A stretch of 64,000 nucleotides of DNA from NCBI RefSeq assembly GCF_003076755.1, contig NZ_QDKM01000002.1:186001-250000 (forward strand). Reading direction: 5' to 3'. The notes beneath the pieces were generated by a model. It saw nothing but the letters and a program-made list of their open reading frames with translations. It searched no databases and was not told the DNA's origin. Every line of letters begins with the position of its first letter. Positions within the stretch are counted from its first letter, which is position 1. The stretch comes from Pararhodobacter oceanensis (GTDB taxonomy: Bacteria > Pseudomonadota > Alphaproteobacteria > Rhodobacterales > Rhodobacteraceae). The position numbers and the translations under genes are program-made. Positions 26,920 through 37,766 of this stretch are shown piece after piece.

Positions 26920-27588
26920 TTACTTTTGCTTCAAATTCGGGTCGAGGGCGAAGAAATCTGCCCAATTGTCAAATGTCGGCACCTGCGGGGGCGGGATCTG
27001 CGCAGGTTGCAGGTTCTTGAGATGCGATCCGCCGGTGAATTGCCACACCGGCATATGCGCCGCCTGTGCCGCGCGCAGACCCGGGACGCTGTCTTCGATC
27101 ACCAGACAGGCTTGGGGCGCGACCCCCATCTGCTGCGCCGCATAGAGGAAAAGATCCGGTGCCGGTTTACCATGTTTCACCTGACAGGTGGTAAAGACTT
27201 TGCCGGCAAAATGCACATCAAGACCGGTTATGGCCAGCGAATTCAGGGCGCGCTCGGGGTTGGAACTGGTGGCGACACAGGCGGGCACGGCGAGGTTTTC
27301 GACCACCGAGTGGATATGCGGCATCGGTTGCAGCTCGGCGGCGAAACGGGCCAGCAGCGAGGTTTGAACCGCCGCGGCAAACCTCTCGAACTCACCCGCG
27401 CGCGCGCCGATGCCATAGCTTCCGGCGACATCGACGAGGCTGCGCCCGACGCAATCACGGATCGCGGTTTGCTCATCTATATGGACGCCGAGATTGGCCA
27501 GTTCCTCGACCAGAACGCGCACCGAGATCGCCTCGGAATCGATCAGCACGCCGTCACAATCGAATATTATCAGCTGGATATCGGACAT
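26920..27588 (-). CDS. HAD-family hydrolase (beta-phosphoglucomutase-like)
   Basis: Haloacid dehalogenase-superfamily phosphatase or phosphomutase of 222 residues. Motif I is FDCDGVLIDSE with the nucleophile Asp, motif II CVATSSNPERAL, motif III lysine KHGKPAPDLFLYAA and motif IV VIEDSVPG. The cap is the alpha-helical subclass I type. It is the first gene of the polyol block, 7 nt before the regulator, with AAAGGGG as ribosome-binding site. A role in dephosphorylating a sugar phosphate of the pathway, possibly the regulator's ligand, is inference. Confidence 0.87.
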   Translation of the reverse strand: MSDIQLIIFDCDGVLIDSEAISVRVLVEELANLGVHIDEQTAIRDCVGRSLVDVAGSYGIGARAGEFERFAAAVQTSLLARFAAELQPMPHIHSVVENLAVPACVATSSNPERALNSLAITGLDVHFAGKVFTTCQVKHGKPAPDLFLYAAQQMGVAPQACLVIEDSVPGLRAAQAAHMPVWQFTGGSHLKNLQPAQIPPPQVPTFDNWADFFALDPNLKQK

Positions 27589-28127
27589 CGGGCACCCCTT
27601 TTGCCAAGGACGGTCGGTCGGTCTTCATTCTGTCGATCTGTTGCCATGGAGGGGCTGCGACGGGTCTTATAGCTAATGGCAAATCGCCGGCGATGGAATA
27701 CACCCCGATCGCGGCGAATTGTCGGCAGCGGGTTGATATGGTTAACATAGTGGCGGGTGATGGGCCTTGACGCGGAGCTCTGTGGCGGCTTTGCTGCGCT
27801 ATGGTCGGGGTTTCGGGCCTTGGCCGGTGTTGCGCGAAGCGGGCCAGTCCCTGATTCTCCCCGCGCATTGTTTCCAAATCAGCACCAGCGCCGCAAATAT
27901 CGCCGGATTGTCCTCTGGTCGCCGCATTGCGGCCATGTTTTGGCGGGATCAATAGCCGTAAGGAAATGGCCCATGGCGCGGCGGATAAGGTGAGTCGCGC
28001 GGGTGGGGCAAGTGATGTCAGGCGGATATGTGATGCGCGGTGTAGTGATCGAGGTTCTGGTAGATGTGGCACGGGCAGATGCGCTCTGTGCGGCCCGCGG
28101 TCATGGTAAATCCAGCAAGGCAGGTGG
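27589..28127. other. Intergenic region between divergent clusters
   Basis: About 540 bp separate the polyol block (leftward) from the PilZ-like/Ugd cluster (rightward) and must hold the promoters of both. A perfect 12-bp palindrome, ATCGCCGGCGAT, is at 27683-27694, about 95 nt upstream of the HAD start, and could be an operator for the SorC-type regulator. No convincing -35/-10 pair was found. Apart from a 38-codon ORF at the right end, nothing looks coding. Confidence 0.5.
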
Positions 28128-28131
28128 GTGA
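28015..28131 (+). CDS. Possible 38-residue leader ORF upstream of the PilZ-like gene
   Basis: Starts at ATG 28015 with GGTGGGG a few bases upstream, encodes MSGGYVMRGVVIEVLVDVAR and continues to a TGA that overlaps the start of the next gene (TGATG). The product has a short hydrophobic stretch. The stop/start overlap and the upstream purine run are consistent with a translated leader, but its size and lack of a known family make chance likely. Confidence 0.25.
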   Translation: MSGGYVMRGVVIEVLVDVARADALCAARGHGKSSKAGG

Positions 28132-30515
28132 TGCAGGGACAATTCGCACCGGTGCCCTTCACCGAGGTTTATATGCGCCATCTGGCAACGCTGGCCGCCT
28201 TTGAGGCGCCGCGTCCGGTGGCGCCGCCGTTGAATACCTATGAGCCGGTGGCCGAGGCGGTGGTTGCGTCGGGTGCTGGGACAGATACGGGGCCGGATGT
28301 TGGTCCGCAGGCGGTTGCGCCGGAGGCTGCGGCGCCGGTGGCGGATCACGGCGCGTATAACCCGCCGAAATACTGGCCCGAAGAGCTGCGCAAACATAAG
28401 CGTGCGCCCTATGCGTCTTTGGCTGAGGAGGCCTCGCCGTTTGAGGGCTTCGAGCCGGAGGCGGAGGAAGTGCCGCCAGCGCCGGAGCAAATGCGTCAGG
28501 CGCCCCGGCCTGCGCCGGTTCAGCCTGTGCCCCTGCAGGCCGCGCCCTCGCCATTCGTGCCGCAGCAACCCGTGCCGCCGCAGCCCGCTGTGCAGCAGCC
28601 CACCACACAACAAACCACCCCGCAGCCTGAGCGGCGTCAGCCCTATGCGCCCTATGTGCCGCCGCTGCGCGCGCAGGTGCCGCCAGCCGCTGCGGCCGCC
28701 TATACCCCGCCGCCGCCCTTCACCGCCTATGCGCCGCCGCAGCCCTATGCCGCAGCACCGCGCGCATCGCATCAGGCGCAGGCGCATCAGACGGGGCGTC
28801 AATCCGGGCATCAGTCCGCGCATCAGTCCGCCGAAGAGATGAAAGTCGCCTGGCAGGGGGTCGAATATCCGGTCGCTTGCTGGGATGTGCAGGGGTTTGA
28901 ACTGGCCGTCGAGATCCCGCGGGTCTTGGCACCGGGGCAGGGACGGCGGGGCGAATTTACCCTGTTGATCGGCACCGGCGGCACGCGCATCGAAATGCGG
29001 GTGCAGGCGCGCAGGATCGGCGCCGAGCCGGGTGCCGCGCTGCGCTATGAATTCATTGATATGGCTCCGGCGCAGGCGGGTGTCTTGCAGCGGATCATCG
29101 AGACTTCGGTGGTCAATCAGGCGATGGACCTGAGCCGCCAGTGGCATGCGCCGCAATCGCAGCAGCCACAACCTCAGTCAGCGCAGGCGCAGTCGGCGCA
29201 GCCGCAACCTCAGGATTGGGACCAATATCAGCCGCAAAATCAGGCGTTTAACCAAACGCCGAGCCAATCGTTCAACCACACACAGTCCCCGCCGCTGACC
29301 CGCAGCCAGACGGCGGTCCAGACCCAGACCGCGACCCAAACGGCCACCCAAACCGCGACCCAAGCCCAGACCGAGCCCAAAACAAAGGCGCGGTCGCTGG
29401 GCATTGTCTCGATGGTCAAACTGGCGCTGGCGGCGGTTATTCTGGCGGTTGCCGGGCTGCTGACTTGGTCGAGCTTTGCCACCGTGCAGGCGCGTTACGC
29501 GGCGGTGACGGTGGCGGCAACCAGCCTCTCGGTGCCGGTCGCCGGACGTTTGAACGCGATGACCGTGCAGCCGGGGCAAGAGCTGCGCACGGGTGAGGTT
29601 CTGGGCTTTGTGCATCCCGCCGATCAGGAGGCGCAGGTCGCGGCGCTTATCGAGCACCGCCGCGCGCTCGAAGTCGAACTGGCCGCATTGCGTTCGCAGC
29701 GCGGGGCGATGGCGCAGGGGGCGGATGCGGCAGCAATTCCGGCGCCGGCTGCGACGGGCGTGGATGGCGCGGCGCGGGCGCAGCTTGAGCAGGTTCTGGC
29801 GCTGGCCGAACGCCGTCTGGCGCTCGAGCGGGACCAGCTGGCGGCGATGGTTGCCAGCGATCTGCCCGCCGCCAGCCTGCAGCGCGATCGCGCGCAGCAA
29901 GAGGCTCTGGTCGCCGAGGCCGAGCGCGCGGTGCTGGAGGTGCAAACACAGTTGAGCACAACTGCTCCGGCGCCGATCACGATGATGCAAGGCGGGCTGG
30001 GCGACAGCGCGCCGATGGGGGCTTCGGATCTGCGGATTGCCAGTCTGAGCGATGAAATCGACGCGCTTTATGTCCGCGAATCGCGGCTGCAAAACGGTGA
30101 GGCGATCCTTTCGCCCTGCGACTGTGTGGTGCAGCAAATCGACCGCCGCGCCGGTGAATGGATCGAGCCGGGCGAGCAACTGGCGCTGCTGCGCGGGTCG
30201 GAAACGCCGGTGATCCATGCGCTCTTGGCCAGCGACGCGGCCCGCGAGATCGACATGGGCGACCGCGCGCGGATTGATCTGGCCGATGGCAGCCGTATCG
30301 AGGGCCGTGTGGCGCGGATGAATTACGAGGCGCAATGGCCCGGGTACACCGGTCTGCAGGCCGATGTATTTGCCGCCAACCGCTATGCGCGGGTGGAAAT
30401 CCAGCCGGATATGCCACTGACCGCGCCGGTCGGCACACGTGCCGAGGTTCAGTTGCAGACCAATGAATGGGTCGCGCGGACGACGGCTGCGCTCTACCGG
30501 ATGGTGGGTCTGTGA
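28128..30515 (+). CDS. Alg44-like membrane protein: PilZ-like domain plus HlyD-like adaptor
   Basis: 795 residues with three parts. Residues 1 to ~235 are a Pro/Ala/Gln-rich, low-complexity cytoplasmic region. Residues ~237-340 resemble a PilZ beta-barrel (EEMKVAWQGVEYPVACWDVQ onward). A Gln/Thr-rich linker leads to a single membrane helix at ~429-453 (KLALAAVILAVAGLLTWSSF). The rest is a periplasmic HlyD/membrane-fusion region with a lipoyl-like strand (SVPVAGRLNAMTVQPGQELR), a coiled-coil hairpin and LSPCDCVVQQI. This is the architecture of Alg44-type exopolysaccharide export co-factors. The PilZ-like part lacks a recognisable RxxxR and has WDVQGFE where (D/N)xSxxG is expected, so c-di-GMP binding is doubtful. 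The start is GTG 28128 or ATG 28131. Ugd follows after 67 nt. Confidence 0.75.
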   Translation: MMQGQFAPVPFTEVYMRHLATLAAFEAPRPVAPPLNTYEPVAEAVVASGAGTDTGPDVGPQAVAPEAAAPVADHGAYNPPKYWPEELRKHKRAPYASLAEEASPFEGFEPEAEEVPPAPEQMRQAPRPAPVQPVPLQAAPSPFVPQQPVPPQPAVQQPTTQQTTPQPERRQPYAPYVPPLRAQVPPAAAAAYTPPPPFTAYAPPQPYAAAPRASHQAQAHQTGRQSGHQSAHQSAEEMKVAWQGVEYPVACWDVQGFELAVEIPRVLAPGQGRRGEFTLLIGTGGTRIEMRVQARRIGAEPGAALRYEFIDMAPAQAGVLQRIIETSVVNQAMDLSRQWHAPQSQQPQPQSAQAQSAQPQPQDWDQYQPQNQAFNQTPSQSFNHTQSPPLTRSQTAVQTQTATQTATQTATQAQTEPKTKARSLGIVSMVKLALAAVILAVAGLLTWSSFATVQARYAAVTVAATSLSVPVAGRLNAMTVQPGQELRTGEVLGFVHPADQEAQVAALIEHRRALEVELAALRSQRGAMAQGADAAAIPAPAATGVDGAARAQLEQVLALAERRLALERDQLAAMVASDLPAASLQRDRAQQEALVAEAERAVLEVQTQLSTTAPAPITMMQGGLGDSAPMGASDLRIASLSDEIDALYVRESRLQNGEAILSPCDCVVQQIDRRAGEWIEPGEQLALLRGSETPVIHALLASDAAREIDMGDRARIDLADGSRIEGRVARMNYEAQWPGYTGLQADVFAANRYARVEIQPDMPLTAPVGTRAEVQLQTNEWVARTTAALYRMVGL

Positions 30516-30582
30516 TGCTCGCCGCCGGTCAGCGCGCGGGTTTGGCGCATATGTGGCGCTGGCGGCAGGGCGGAGGCGGGTG

Positions 30583-31773
30583 ATGCGGATTGCGGTGGCA
30601 GGATTGGGCTATGTTGGCCTCTCGAATGCGGTCTTATTGGCGCGGCAGCATGAGGTCTGCGCGATAGATATCGACCCCGCGCGGGTTGAGGCGGTGAATG
30701 CCGGACGCTCGCCGGTGATCGACGCGGAATGCAGCCGGTTTCTGGCCTCAGGCAGCCTTGATCTACGCGCCACGCTGGACCCGCAGGAGGCCTATTCAAG
30801 CGCTGAACTGGTGATAATCGCCACACCGACGAATTACGACGCGCAGACCCACGGGTTTGACACAAGCAGCATCGAATCGGTGATCGCGGCGGTGCGCGGG
30901 GTGAACCCTGACGCACTGATGGTGATCAAATCGACGGTGCCGGTGGGCTATACCGCGGCTTTGCGCGCGCGGCTGGGCTGCGACAACCTGCTGTTTTCGC
31001 CCGAGTTTCTGCGCGAGGGGCAGGCGTTGCAGGACAATCTGCACCCGTCGCGCATTGTCGTCGGTGATACCGGCGCGCGTGGAGCGATGGTGGCGGAATT
31101 GCTGCGCGCAGCTGCGGAAAAAACGGATGTGCCGGTGCTGTTGACCGATTCCACCGAGGCCGAGGCGATCAAACTCTTCGCCAATACCTATCTTGCGATG
31201 CGGGTGTCGTTTTTCAACGAATTGGACACAATCGCCATGGCCACAGGCATCGAATCGCGTGAGGTGATCGAGGGGCTGTGTCTGGACCCGAATGTTGGCA
31301 ATCATTACAACAATCCCTCCTTTGGCTATGGCGGCTATTGCCTGCCGAAGGACAGCAAACAGCTTTTGGCCAATTTCGCCAGCGTGCCGCAAGAGATGAT
31401 GCGAGCGATTGTCGATGCCAATGAGGTGCGCAAATCCTTCCTCGCCGAAACCATCTCCAAGAGGGTTGCGGCGGGGAGATCGGCGGGCGGCAAGGGGCTG
31501 GTCGGCGTCCACCGGCTGGCGATGAAACAGGGCTCGGATAATTTCCGCGAGAGCGCGCTGCAGGATATCATCCGCAAGCTGGATGCTTTGGGCGTCGAGA
31601 TGTTGATCTATGAACCGGCTTGGCCCGATGCGCGCTGTCTCGGTCATCCGGTCGAGCGCGATTTTGGACGGTTTTGTGCGGCGTCCGATCTGGTCATCGC
31701 CAACCGGATGACGCCGGATCTGGCGCCGGTTGCAGATAAAGTGTTCACCCGTGATCTGTTCGGAGCCAATTGA
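30583..31773 (+). CDS. ugd: UDP-glucose 6-dehydrogenase
   Basis: Oxidises UDP-glucose to UDP-glucuronate with two NAD, supplying acidic polysaccharide precursors. It has 396 residues and all core signatures. These are MRIAVAGLGYVGLSNAV (NAD site), IDIDPARV with the ribose-binding Asp, STVPVGYT, SPEFLREG with the catalytic Glu, EAEAIKLFANTYLAMRVSFF (Lys and Asn), NPSFGYGGYCLPKDSKQ (catalytic Cys), and KQGSDNFRESA for the UDP-sugar. The start ATG follows GGAGG by about 6 nt; the frame is open 48 codons further upstream but overlaps the preceding gene. It resembles the short E. coli-type Ugd. No matching glycosyltransferase is in the window. Confidence 0.94.
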   Translation: MRIAVAGLGYVGLSNAVLLARQHEVCAIDIDPARVEAVNAGRSPVIDAECSRFLASGSLDLRATLDPQEAYSSAELVIIATPTNYDAQTHGFDTSSIESVIAAVRGVNPDALMVIKSTVPVGYTAALRARLGCDNLLFSPEFLREGQALQDNLHPSRIVVGDTGARGAMVAELLRAAAEKTDVPVLLTDSTEAEAIKLFANTYLAMRVSFFNELDTIAMATGIESREVIEGLCLDPNVGNHYNNPSFGYGGYCLPKDSKQLLANFASVPQEMMRAIVDANEVRKSFLAETISKRVAAGRSAGGKGLVGVHRLAMKQGSDNFRESALQDIIRKLDALGVEMLIYEPAWPDARCLGHPVERDFGRFCAASDLVIANRMTPDLAPVADKVFTRDLFGAN

Positions 31774-31818
31774 GTAAACCGGTGTTAACGCGCCGCAGCG
31801 TTTGAGTGAGGTAGAGTA

Positions 31819-32946
31819 ATGCGTATTGCGATCATCGGCTTGGGATATGTGGCGCTGGGCGATGCCTTGGGCTTGGCGCGGCGTCATCAGGTGGTGCTGA
31901 CCGGTCCGGTGCCCGACCGTGTCGAGGCGATCAACGCCGGTGATTTCCCGCTGGGCGACCCGACGCTGGCGGCATATCTGGCGCGTCATCAGCTGGATAT
32001 CCGCGCGACGCTCGACACGGCGCAAGCCTTGGAGGGGGCGGAACTGGTGCTGATCTCGGCGCCTTTGGCGTTCAGCGCGGATGGTGAGGATTTCTGCACC
32101 AAAGAGCTGGAATCGCGTATTGAATTCGCCTTTCAGCGCTGCCCCGGCGTGCCGATTGTGCTGCGCTCGGCGGTGCCGATCGGCTTTACCGCGCAGATGC
32201 GCGCGCGATTGGGGGCCAGCGCGCTGCTTTATGCGCCGGAATTCCTGCGCGAATCGCATGCCTTGCAGGACACCTGCGCGCCGAAGTTCCTGATCGTCGG
32301 CGACCGTGGCGCATTGGGGGCGAAAGTCGCCGCGGTGTTGCAAAGCGCGGCGCTGCGGGGGGGTGCCGAGATCAAGCTGATGGGCGCGTCCGAGGCGGAG
32401 GCGGTCAAGCATTTCTCGCAGGCCTATCTGGCCGCAAGGGTGGCGTTTTTCAATGAACTGGACAGTTACGCGCTGTCCTTCGGGTTGAATGCGCGGCAGG
32501 TGATCGATGGGGTCTGCCTTGATCCGCGGATCGGCACCTATGCGAATAACCCCTGTTTCGGCATGGGCGGGCAGCGGGTGCCGCGCAGCACCCAACATCT
32601 GAACAAGGTGTTCGGTCAGGTGCCCTCGCAGGTATTGCCGACGGTGACCGGCAGCAACACGTCGCGGATTTCGCTGCTGGTGTCGAAAGTGATGGAGCGC
32701 GCGCCGCGCACCATCGGGATTTATAACCCCAAAGGGGTGTCAGGCGCGCGCGATCCGCTGACCTTGATCAGCGAAGGGCTCAAGGCCAAGGGCGCCGAGG
32801 TGCGCGAATTCACCGGCGATGCAAGCGCTGATCCCGAGGCTCTGGCCGGGTTCAAGGCGGCCTGCGATCTGGTGCTGGCGCAGCGGATCACCCCGGACCT
32901 GCATGATATCAGCGCCAAAGTGTTCAGCCGCGATCTATTCGCCTGA
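31819..32946 (+). CDS. Ugd paralogue with degraded active site (probable pseudoenzyme)
   Basis: A full-length 375-residue relative of the preceding Ugd, recognisable throughout (MRIAIIGLGYVALGDALGLA, VPIGFTAQMRARLG, APEFLRES, EAEAVKHFSQAYLAARVAFF). The key positions are altered. GLGYVG is GLGYVA, and IDIDP is TGPVP, losing the ribose-binding Asp. The Asn of KLFANTYLA is Gln. The catalytic-Cys segment GYGGYCLPKDSKQ is GMGGQRVPRSTQH, and the GSDNFR sugar-binding loop is gone. The reading frame is intact and the active-site Glu and Lys remain. It starts 45 nt after ugd in what looks like one operon. A regulatory or structural partner of Ugd, or a new activity, is inference; simple decay is the alternative, but there is no frameshift or internal stop. 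Confidence 0.8.
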   Translation: MRIAIIGLGYVALGDALGLARRHQVVLTGPVPDRVEAINAGDFPLGDPTLAAYLARHQLDIRATLDTAQALEGAELVLISAPLAFSADGEDFCTKELESRIEFAFQRCPGVPIVLRSAVPIGFTAQMRARLGASALLYAPEFLRESHALQDTCAPKFLIVGDRGALGAKVAAVLQSAALRGGAEIKLMGASEAEAVKHFSQAYLAARVAFFNELDSYALSFGLNARQVIDGVCLDPRIGTYANNPCFGMGGQRVPRSTQHLNKVFGQVPSQVLPTVTGSNTSRISLLVSKVMERAPRTIGIYNPKGVSGARDPLTLISEGLKAKGAEVREFTGDASADPEALAGFKAACDLVLAQRITPDLHDISAKVFSRDLFA

Positions 32947-32954
32947 AGCTGCGC

Positions 32955-33530
32955 CTAAGCCTGTGCCGGAGCTTCGCCTGAGGTTTCGCCCTTGGACAGG
33001 CTGAGCGCATAGCGGCGGATATCCTCGGGCCAATCCTGCATTTGCCTGGCGAAAGCCATAAGATCCCCCGCAAAGAGCGCGCGCGTGGCCTCTTCATATC
33101 CGGGGAGATCCCCGCCGAGCGCATGGATAAAGCGGTAGGCCGCCTCATGCGCCTGACGGGCCTCGGTGGCGCCGCCATCGGCGCGGCGGGCCTCATCAAC
33201 CAGCCGTCGCAGCGTCGCCGAAGCGCCGCCCTTTTGCTGCGAAAGCCACTCCCAATGCCGCGCCAGAAGCGTGATCTCGCGCGGGATCACGCCGAGTTTC
33301 GGGCGACCGGGGCCGCGTTTCTTGGGCGCTTCCGCGGGTGCTTCGGGCGCAGGTGCCTCAGGCTGGGGATAGCCGCGCGGGTCGATGTCGATGACCCGCC
33401 CCGAGCGATCCTCGAAGACCAAGAGCCCCTCGGTATCAGCGGTGTCGCGGGCGATCCGGTGCAGCGGGCCGCGGGCCAGCATTCGGGTGCCTTGAAAGGC
33501 GGTGCATTGGGTGGCGGGGTCTTGGGTCAT
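32955..33530 (-). CDS. DUF2239 family protein
   Basis: A 191-residue protein of the uncharacterised DUF2239 family. Recognisable pieces are TAFQGTRMLARGPLHRIA near the start, LLVFEDRSGRVIDIDPRG, then KKRGPGRPKLGVIPREITLL, RHWEWLSQQKGGASATLRRL and VDEARRADGG. The GRPKLG segment resembles an AT-hook-like basic patch. The start was placed at MTQDPATQ because AAAGGAG precedes it; 35 upstream codons are open but lack such a site. It is divergent from the GIY-YIG-like gene and convergent with the Ugd paralogue (8 nt apart). Confidence 0.8.
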   Translation of the reverse strand: MTQDPATQCTAFQGTRMLARGPLHRIARDTADTEGLLVFEDRSGRVIDIDPRGYPQPEAPAPEAPAEAPKKRGPGRPKLGVIPREITLLARHWEWLSQQKGGASATLRRLVDEARRADGGATEARQAHEAAYRFIHALGGDLPGYEEATRALFAGDLMAFARQMQDWPEDIRRYALSLSKGETSGEAPAQA

Positions 33531-33646
33531 GTTAGGTGCTCCTTTGCCGCCTTGAAACACAGGCGCGGGGGCTGAGTCAATATTACCCGTATAAAATTGA
33601 CGCGGCTTTTGCGAGCTGTTATGCAGCGGCAACACAGGAGACAGCG

Positions 33647-33970
33647 ATGCCCGAGACCCGCCGCGCGATGAGCGCCGCCTATAAGACCCGCAAATCCGAC
33701 GCGGGGATCTATGCCCTGCGTATGGGCGATGCGCTTTGGGTCGGCAGCACGCCGACGCTGGCCAGTATCGAGAACCGGCATGGCTTTACCCTGCGGCAGG
33801 GCTCGCATCCGAATAAAGCCTTGCAACAAGCGTGGCTTGCGGCGGGCGAGAGGTTCACGTTCGAGACCCTCGAGCATTTGGACCCCGATCTGAGCGACTT
33901 GGCGCGGGCGCGGTTGCTCAAGGAGCGTTTGGCCTATTGGCAGGAGGAGTTGGACGCGCCTAAGGTCTGA
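33647..33970 (+). CDS. GIY-YIG-like family protein, 107 aa
   Basis: Short protein whose N-terminal half contains AGIYALRMGDALWVGSTPTL, matching the GIY and YIG strands of a GIY-YIG nuclease fold, with WVG in place of YIG. RHGFTLRQGSHPNKALQQAW follows, a segment common to small stand-alone members found in Rhodobacteraceae. A Glu-containing region (FETLEHLD) could be the metal ligand. The start ATG has GGAG upstream. Loss of the second Tyr makes nuclease activity uncertain. It is followed closely by the enolase-superfamily gene. Confidence 0.65.
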   Translation: MPETRRAMSAAYKTRKSDAGIYALRMGDALWVGSTPTLASIENRHGFTLRQGSHPNKALQQAWLAAGERFTFETLEHLDPDLSDLARARLLKERLAYWQEELDAPKV

Positions 33971-37198: not shown

Positions 37199-37272
37199 GT
37201 AGGGTGTGTGCTTTGCACGCACCCTTTTTCATGCGGTGTTCTGGTTCGGTGCGTGCAGAGCACACACCCTAC
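37199..37272. repeat. REP-like inverted pair flanking the RAYT gene end
   Basis: Two 25-bp units, at 37199-37223 and 37248-37272, are inverted copies of one another with a single mismatch (GTAGGGTGTGTGC... against its reverse complement). Each unit is itself an imperfect hairpin. The second overlaps the stop codon of the REP-associated transposase gene. This is the arrangement expected for a REP/BIME mobilised or bound by the neighbouring protein. Confidence 0.75.
37202..37229 (+). terminator. Rho-independent terminator of lepA
   Basis: Stem GGGTGTGTGC (37202-37211) pairs with GCACGCACCC (37215-37224) with one G-U pair, loop TTT, followed by five T (37225-37229). It lies 26 nt after the lepA stop and coincides with the left REP-like unit. 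Confidence 0.8.
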
Positions 37273-37766
37273 GGCTGAGGCTCGGGCCGTGAAAAATGCC
37301 CCATCGCCAGCTCGCGGTGGATCGAGGAAAAGGGCCAGTTGAACGGCGTCTTGGCGAGGTTTTGCTCGACCGGCGCGTTCCAGCAAAACCGCAGATGCCA
37401 GTGGTAATCCGCGTCATCGCGGATGTGATGTTCCCAAAACCGGCGTTGCCAGATACCGCGCTCGCGCCGTGCGATATGGCTGGCGCGCCGTGTCCCCCGT
37501 GGCAGCCCTTGCGAGAACCGCGTTTTGATCAGCCGCCAGCGGGTGGCGTAATCGGCGTCACGCTCGGGCAAGGTCCAGACGCAGTGTAGGTGATCGGGGA
37601 GCACGACAAAGGCGTCGATGATAAACGGGCGCTCGGTTTTGGTGCGGGCGACCGCATGGCGGAGGCGCTGGACCTCGTCGATCAACAGGCTGCTGCCGCG
37701 CTGGGCCAGAGCGACGGAGAAGAACACGGTGGCCCCGGGGAGCCTTGGGCGCAGATAGTTGGACAT
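37269..37766 (-). CDS. REP-associated tyrosine transposase-like protein (RAYT)
   Basis: 165 residues of the Y1/IS200-like HUH family that binds and processes REP hairpins. The HUH metal motif is LPDHLHCVWTLPERDADYAT, followed by RWRLIKTRFS and GIWQRRFWEHHIRDDADY. In typical RAYTs the next helix reads like HVDYIHxNPVKHG, with the nucleophilic Tyr. Here it is HLRFCWNAPVEQN, so the Tyr appears replaced by Phe. The C-terminal WPFSSIHRE segment is normal. The gene ends inside an inverted REP-like unit. It is a single-copy chromosomal gene without IS ends and may be domesticated or inactive for cleavage. Confidence 0.85.
   Translation of the reverse strand: MSNYLRPRLPGATVFFSVALAQRGSSLLIDEVQRLRHAVARTKTERPFIIDAFVVLPDHLHCVWTLPERDADYATRWRLIKTRFSQGLPRGTRRASHIARRERGIWQRRFWEHHIRDDADYHWHLRFCWNAPVEQNLAKTPFNWPFSSIHRELAMGHFSRPEPQP

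Follow-up and report, generated by a model that had tools for sequence, protein, structure and literature searches.

In the short UDP-glucose dehydrogenase (UGDH) of S. pyogenes, whose residue numbering is used throughout, the part of the structural literature consulted (PMC4794789) assigns the active-site roles: Asp29 serves the NAD ribose, Thr83 the nicotinamide ribose, Cys260 is the nucleophile and Asp264 the base, and Arg244 of subunit b lies 3.1 Å from the glucose held in subunit a. For the human enzyme, excerpts of PMC3184952 describe a contact between Arg260 of one protomer and the glucose bound by its partner, and a dimer similar to the obligate one of S. pyogenes. In both proteins this arginine stands 16 residues before the catalytic cysteine, as does the arginine of the LDPRIG motif in the proteins described here; a paper measuring the human R260A change was looked for in the literature and not found. 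A dead paralogue beside its live enzyme is already known as a kind. Trypanosome deoxyhypusine synthase becomes about 3000-fold more active through such a paralogue, with which it forms a 2:2 complex (PMC3663545, in excerpt).

The stretch analysed here, the window, comprises 64,000 nucleotides of the Pararhodobacter oceanensis genome. The open frame of 375 codons on which the original prediction was built was recovered on the plus strand at positions 31819–32946, starting with ATG, 45 bases 3′ of ugd1 (30583–31773, plus strand), which encodes the UDP-glucose 6-dehydrogenase Ugd1, an enzyme that forms UDP-glucuronic acid. Its product, a pseudo-UDP-glucose dehydrogenase of 375 amino acids here called pU2, was 44% identical to Ugd1 in a search of the window genome. 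Ugd1 matched PF03721, PF00984 and PF03720 and scored 320.4 against TIGR03026, above the cut-off of 189.8, whereas pU2 stayed below it (169.4) and gave no match to PF03720 at E 0.001; the equivalog NF011631 (cut-off 757) was reached by neither Ugd1 (515) nor pU2 (266.6). The closest PDB sequences to pU2 were the short UGDHs 3PHL, 3PID, 1DLJ and 1DLI. Its structure was predicted with a mean pLDDT of 91.5 and a pTM of 0.88 from a 66-row alignment, used instead of a 10-row alignment that gave a poor central domain, and the best six chains (3PLR, 3PID, 3PHL, 3PJG, 1DLI and 1DLJ) matched this model with query-normalised TM scores of 0.85–0.91. The predicted model thus contains the three-domain UGDH fold. 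On the other strand, a DUF2239 protein (32955–33635, minus strand) is encoded convergently with pU2, eight bases apart.

Within this fold the active site is erased. Every change listed in the original prediction was present in our alignments: the third glycine of the NAD loop is alanine (Gly12 to Ala, 31852–31854, plus strand), the motif of the NAD-ribose aspartate reads Thr-Gly-Pro in place of DID (Asp29 to Gly, 31900–31908, plus strand), Asn208 is Gln, the cysteine segment has Arg at position 260 (codon CGG, 32575–32577, plus strand) and Ser at Asp264, and the GSDNFR loop with Lys320, Asn325 and Arg327 is gone, missing in both alignments of pU2, which set the gap at different places. Two losses go beyond that list, Thr83 to Leu and Thr118 to Ala. 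Gly7, Gly9, Ser117, Pro140, Glu141, Glu145, Glu201, Lys204, Asn219, Arg244, Gly257 and Gly258 are kept in the window protein.

The same residues are gone throughout the family. All ten losses are common to the 12 pU2 sequences found, and in the NAD site the replacing residues are also the same in every one (Ala, Gly, Leu and Ala for Gly12, Asp29, Thr83 and Thr118); the Cys260 position holds Arg in six, Thr in three and Leu, Met and Ala in one each. No orthologue therefore retains the cysteine or the NAD motifs, with Gly12, Asp29, Thr83, Thr118, Asn208, Cys260 and Asp264 missing in 12/12. Gly7, Gly9, Ser117, Glu201, Asn219 and Arg244 are invariant, and Gly257 (9/12) and Gly258 (7/12) are partly kept. 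The earlier statement that the Glu and Lys of the active site persist holds for the window (Glu145, Lys204) but not family-wide, where Glu145 is found in 10/12 and Lys204 in 6/12, with Arg in the other six.

The 12 sequences, the window's included, each lie 3′ of a Ugd1, and one (L029) is cut by a contig end. They come from 5 of 18 genomes of the window's GTDB genus, 5 of 37 genomes of a second genus (g204) and two Rhodobacteraceae MAG contigs (L026 and L029); in a sixth genome of the window's genus (G005) the operon is present up to a contig end inside Ugd1. Absence from relatives, which the original prediction had named as a sign of recent decay, is contradicted by these 11 further orthologues in two genera, and since they come from independent genomes (10 full length, one cut), sequencing or assembly error and chance are excluded. 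No third genus with a full-length pU2 appeared when profiles were run against 394 family genomes from 393 genera (limit E 1e-95) and against two sets of order genomes, 292 at E 1e-115 and 390 at E 1e-118; the draws overlapped, truncated forms would fall below these limits, and a genus is missed when the genome drawn lacks pU2, as g204 was in the 394-genome search. Spread by plasmids was considered and rejected: tblastn gave 490 records, all below 60% identity (the best 20 of 490 at 39–42.5%), and blastn gave 42, with coverage of at most 29% of the gene among the 10 matches listed.

In trees pU2 formed one clade (support 100/100 with the first seven sequences, SH-aLRT 100 with all twelve). Together with Ugd1 it split from 20 of the 41 other Ugds with an SH-aLRT of 96.9 in a quick tree from which two dead Ugd1 were excluded, a joint placement that is unsure because of the long pU2 stem. 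This placement fits pU2 being, as we infer, probably a tandem duplicate of Ugd1.

We estimated dN/dS with a codon model in IQ-TREE and pairwise by NG86. The codon model gave 0.098 for six and 0.139 for eleven pU2, compared with 0.071 for four complete Ugd1, 0.087 for seven Ugd1 and 0.124 for eight ordinary Ugds of the genus; the neutral value that would have spoken for decay was not seen. Pairwise values for pU2 were 0.15–0.32 over six full-length pairs, highest and thus looser in the MAG pair (pU2 0.319, Ugd1 0.287). That value is one point in favour of pU2 being a decaying duplicate; another is that the locus does decay in places, having lost its polymer genes, and in three genomes the Ugd1 active site. 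Against this stand the purifying selection itself, 47 residues that are invariant in seven pU2 and differ from the Ugd consensus, and the open frames in two genera. The dN/dS tests refute decay as the general explanation of pU2, which we consider very improbable, and with the orthologues they rule out recent local decay. With 12 sequences in one clade, under purifying selection and with the same residues lost, the suggestion of a maintained pseudoenzyme is supported.

The neighbouring Ugd had been described as intact. Its cis active site is indeed complete, including the catalytic cysteine (codon TGC, 31339–31341, plus strand), but the position of the trans-acting Arg244 carries Asn (AAT, 31291–31293, plus strand), which had been overlooked. 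In pU2 the equivalent arginine is kept (CGG, 32527–32529, plus strand), as it is in 12/12 pU2. It is also kept in all 97 Ugds that are neither pU2 nor Ugd1, comprising 41/41 of the family set and 56/56 from IMG/VR contigs (53 distinct; 15 of 71 loci had been excluded as partial or distant). Among the 12 Ugd1, six keep it (G013, G015, G613, G629, G646 and G640), while it is Asn in the window and L026, Asp in L029, and Leu in NTK016B, P. marinus and G642. Nine Ugd1 are complete at the 13/13 active-site positions checked, and three of these, in the window, L026 and G642, lack Arg244.

In the Ugd1 tree the window groups with G013 (96/85), NTK016B and P. marinus with G015 (96/84), and G642 lies among the g204 sequences that have the arginine (its three-row fork supported at 100/95). 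Parsimony on the replacing residues was shortest with four separate losses, at 5 steps vs 6 with an Asn ancestor on the Pararhodobacter side; when only kept or lost was scored, two losses with two regains equalled four losses (4 steps each). Any CGN arginine codon differs from the Asn codons AAT and AAC at two bases, which would speak against easy regain. The following P values are post hoc, because the pattern was spotted before the statistics: given four losses distributed by branch length, P was 0.0025 for all falling in Ugd1 and 0.004 for three falling in complete Ugd1, and pU2 showed none of the four to five losses expected at the Ugd1 loss rate (P 0.006–0.015); given two losses, P was about 0.05 by branch length and about 0.12 for none in pU2 on the same branch lengths.

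A column scan checked, rather than discovered, the pattern. Of 97 columns invariant in the 41 Ugds, 38 were invariant in all pU2 too; in the nine complete Ugd1, 32 of these were never lost, four were lost once, Arg244 was lost three times and Leu214 seven times. Leu214, replaced by Ile, Val or Ala, lies in a long helix that contributes to dimer contacts (PMC4794789, in excerpt).

The loss of Arg244 in Ugd1 together with its retention in pU2 suggests that the two proteins work as a mixed pair. The explanation that we favour, tentatively and at a little less than an even chance, is that pU2 is a maintained, catalytically dead UGDH, probably a tandem duplicate of Ugd1, which forms the non-catalytic half of a Ugd1:pU2 dimer. 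In the solved UGDHs an active site requires an arginine of the partner subunit (Arg244 in S. pyogenes, Arg260 in human); in a mixed dimer only the site of Ugd1 would work, with pU2 providing its arginine. Ugd1's own arginine would point into the dead site of pU2 and be free to be lost; a mixed dimer thus predicts loss in Ugd1 only, as observed. The UGDH formed next to the acidic exopolysaccharide synthase would then have a single active site in each dimer, and the dinucleotide pocket of its second subunit would be remodelled and perhaps regulatory. The suggestion of a hetero-oligomer partner of Ugd thereby gains evolutionary support, of an indirect kind.

Some observations run against the mixed dimer. 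Six of the 12 Ugd1 retain the arginine despite pU2. In NTK016B, P. marinus and MAG CSSed162cmA_243 (3/12) the arginine of pU2 is kept although Ugd1 is dead, and so supplying it to a live site is not the sole reason for its conservation. Three genomes keep mainly the N-domain of pU2, with no Ugd1 nearby. Leu214 is kept in the window Ugd1. Moreover, over nucleotide-sugar dehydrogenases as a whole the conservation of Arg244 is only 76% (PMC4794789, in excerpt), and its loss may mean another substrate. On that account, since the residue contacts the glucose 2″ hydroxyl, Ugd1 would have changed substrate and pU2 would be unrelated to the change; the position varies among dehydrogenases of other sugars and is Lys in GDP-mannose dehydrogenase (PMC4794789, in excerpt). 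Ugd1 with and without the arginine, though, form one clade, and the loss was seen only beside pU2 (0/97 elsewhere), which leads us to regard a mere substrate change as improbable.

A dimer need not involve the arginine. As a structural chaperone or dominant-negative brake, pU2 would dimerise with Ugd1 and stabilise or limit it without giving the residue. In the window pU2 the dimer-forming central domain is the best kept (49% identity to the Ugd consensus, compared with 38% for the N-domain and 40% for the C-domain), and over four pU2 pairs its dN/dS is the lowest in two; the N-domain is lowest in the other two, and the loss of the trans arginine in Ugd1 is not predicted. We consider this role quite doubtful.

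A different kind of evidence came from lone copies of pU2 in three g204 genomes (G623, G627 and G645; L207:7316, L208:1403 and L209:6843), which by their surrounding genes, judged by eye, lie at three different places. Good conservation is limited to roughly the first 200 residues, which carry the pU2 motifs, and the central domain is eroded or deleted; in G645 a C-terminal fragment remains in frame. Neither Ugd1 nor polymer genes were found within 12–16 kb, and no second match in these genomes at E 1e-60. NG86 dN/dS of the lone N-domains was 0.15–0.22 (three genomes, 198 codons), part of the time it covers preceding the truncation. Their branches (0.27, 0.31 and 0.35) fall within the span of all intact pU2 (0.007–0.47) but are at or above the longest intact branch of g204 (0.27, the others 0.11–0.24), and some relaxation is therefore likely.

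All 12 pU2 and all three lone N-domains combine GxGxxA with the absence of an acidic residue at the end of β2, the Thr-Gly-Pro motif included. These are the two usual changes from NAD to NADP specificity (PMC5817062, in excerpt). Thr28 and Arg34 are invariant in pU2 and are candidates for contacting the 2′-phosphate, but Arg34 is common in Ugd too. Judged from its sequence, the N-domain of pU2 may have its own, Ugd-independent role, and the lone N-domains and this fingerprint leave some room for the binder of another ligand suggested originally.

These features also favour a free-standing ligand sensor, in which the N-domain would have exchanged NAD for a different ligand, NADP(H) being the simplest choice, and would report redox or nucleotide state, the pairing with Ugd1 being secondary. 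The fingerprint invariant in 12/12 and 3/3 (PMC5817062, in excerpt), the persistence of the N-domain at separate places despite erosion or deletion of the central domain, and its dN/dS over 198 codons would all fit. A new basic residue for the 2′-phosphate is, however, not obvious, and with Thr83, Thr118 and Arg327 gone from the nicotinamide half and the pyrophosphate contacts, the site may have no ligand at all; the lone branches fit some relaxation, their dN/dS partly predates truncation, and the arginine losses of Ugd1 would be left unexplained. We regard a sensor alone as possible, if unlikely. Returning to the mixed dimer, a two-part version of it can be conceived: the central domain of pU2 would complete the Ugd1 site in trans, and the N-domain, now specific for NADP(H) or some other nucleotide in place of NAD, would sense that ligand and gate the supply of UDP-glucuronate. 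In some species the N-domain would then have been freed as a stand-alone sensor, and the pair would persist beyond catalysis, as a dimer of dead subunits, in at least two species. This fuller scheme we hold to be rather unlikely as a whole.

The gene neighbourhood points to the pathway that the pair may serve. The full operon has the order HlyD, GT2, exporter, Ugd1, pU2. A GT2 polysaccharide synthase gene lies just upstream in 8/12 loci (L026, G013, G015, G613, G642, G629, G646 and G640), all eight with an exporter gene (Poly_export by Pfam in three, by similarity to that of L026 in five) and seven with a HlyD gene, the contig of G013 ending inside the GT2 gene. Relatives of the GT2 protein outside the two pU2 genera are 35–40% identical, and in 9 of 10 regions taken from 28 such genomes another nucleotide-sugar dehydrogenase (31–34% identical to Ugd1) stands beside the synthase. 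Alginate operons likewise carry a nucleotide-sugar dehydrogenase beside a GT2 synthase; by this analogy the Ugd1/pU2 pair probably feeds an acidic exopolysaccharide, which would be the product of the locus.

In the window the operon is reduced. Its first remaining gene encodes a HlyD-domain protein with a long N-terminal region, a layout that we take to be Alg44-like (28128–30515, plus strand; HlyD_3), and 42% identical to the HlyD of the L026 operon; a PilZ domain was looked for in the 200-aa N-terminal piece, and no Pfam match was obtained even at E 10. Only 67 bases (30516–30582) separate this gene from ugd1, the GT2 synthase and exporter genes being missing there, and the whole window genome gave no GT2 match at E 1e-15. 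When it was searched with pU2 at E 0.001, the sole family match besides Ugd1 was a UDP-ManNAc dehydrogenase (NCBIfam) beside wecB; Ugd1 is thus the only UDP-glucose dehydrogenase that this search found. A promoter scan of 27500–33700 found none, where 1.4 were expected, and 10 terminator-like sites, where 4.5 were expected, none of them tied to the operon. Elsewhere in the window, a small protein at 37269–37766 (minus strand), possibly RAYT-like, matches IS200-type transposases weakly (Y1_Tnp, E 0.053, below cut-off), and a regulator with a Sugar-bind domain (PF04198; 25956–26912, minus strand) lies beside a same-strand ABC transporter operon that by eye resembles sugar/polyol systems.

At three loci, those of NTK016B, Pararhodobacter marinus and the MAG CSSed162cmA_243 (L029), Ugd1 itself is dead, with no Cys260, a changed Asn208 and other losses. 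Both adjacent copies are dead at L027:2316–4648 and L028:2301–4627 (NTK016B and P. marinus). There the pair is flanked on one side by a TetR-type gene, in NTK016B with an RND efflux adaptor and permease on the other flank, and in L029 it follows a BCCT gene; no HlyD, GT2 or exporter genes were found in the stretches examined around the three pairs. An ordinary Ugd is encoded elsewhere in the genomes of NTK016B and P. marinus. Between these two, NG86 dN/dS was 0.165 for pU2, 0.142 for Ugd1 and 0.105 for the ordinary Ugd; both dead proteins are under purifying selection.

A live with a dead copy, a live copy without the arginine with a dead one, two dead copies, and a lone N-domain thus occur side by side as natural stages, which makes Ugd1/pU2 a good system for asking how heteromers arise from homomers and how a pseudoenzyme acquires a function of its own. 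As the cross-dimer residue is known from UGDH crystal structures, a single arginine suffices to test the idea. The original prediction knew of no described case, and we found no inactive UGDH paralogue or pseudoenzyme in the literature searched, which lay largely outside subscription journals and included PMC12632274; among the matches listed for Pararhodobacter exopolysaccharide papers, none concerned Pararhodobacter. Within that literature pU2 is an undescribed pseudoenzyme family.

Among known systems, pU2 resembles the short bacterial UGDHs of K. pneumoniae (3PLR/3PJG) and S. pyogenes (1DLI/1DLJ) in its predicted whole-length fold, its C-terminal RDLF-like motif and the six residues invariant in 12/12, and differs from them in lacking the ten catalytic and NAD-site residues named above. 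Alg8 and Alg44 are names attached to alginate-type exopolysaccharide operons, which share with the pU2 operon a GT2 synthase beside a nucleotide-sugar dehydrogenase and a HlyD-type protein; the pU2 operon differs by its Ugd with pU2 and by a Poly_export gene. Trypanosomes, for example, offer documented cases in which a dead paralogue completes or controls a live enzyme, and pU2, if the mixed dimer is true, would be a bacterial case; like those proteins it is a paralogue of a live enzyme that is kept by selection. The AdoMetDC prozyme of trypanosomes is also a dead paralogue that activates the live one, but it is reported to act by relief of autoinhibition and has an unrelated fold (PMC5201418). 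By analogy, the best precedent for Ugd1:pU2 would be trypanosome deoxyhypusine synthase, an unrelated enzyme in which complex and activation were measured, whereas pU2 is known from sequence; there a dead paralogue is kept next to a NAD-dependent partner that is impaired, and active sites form between monomers (PMC3663545, in excerpt), as would hold for Ugd1 and pU2.
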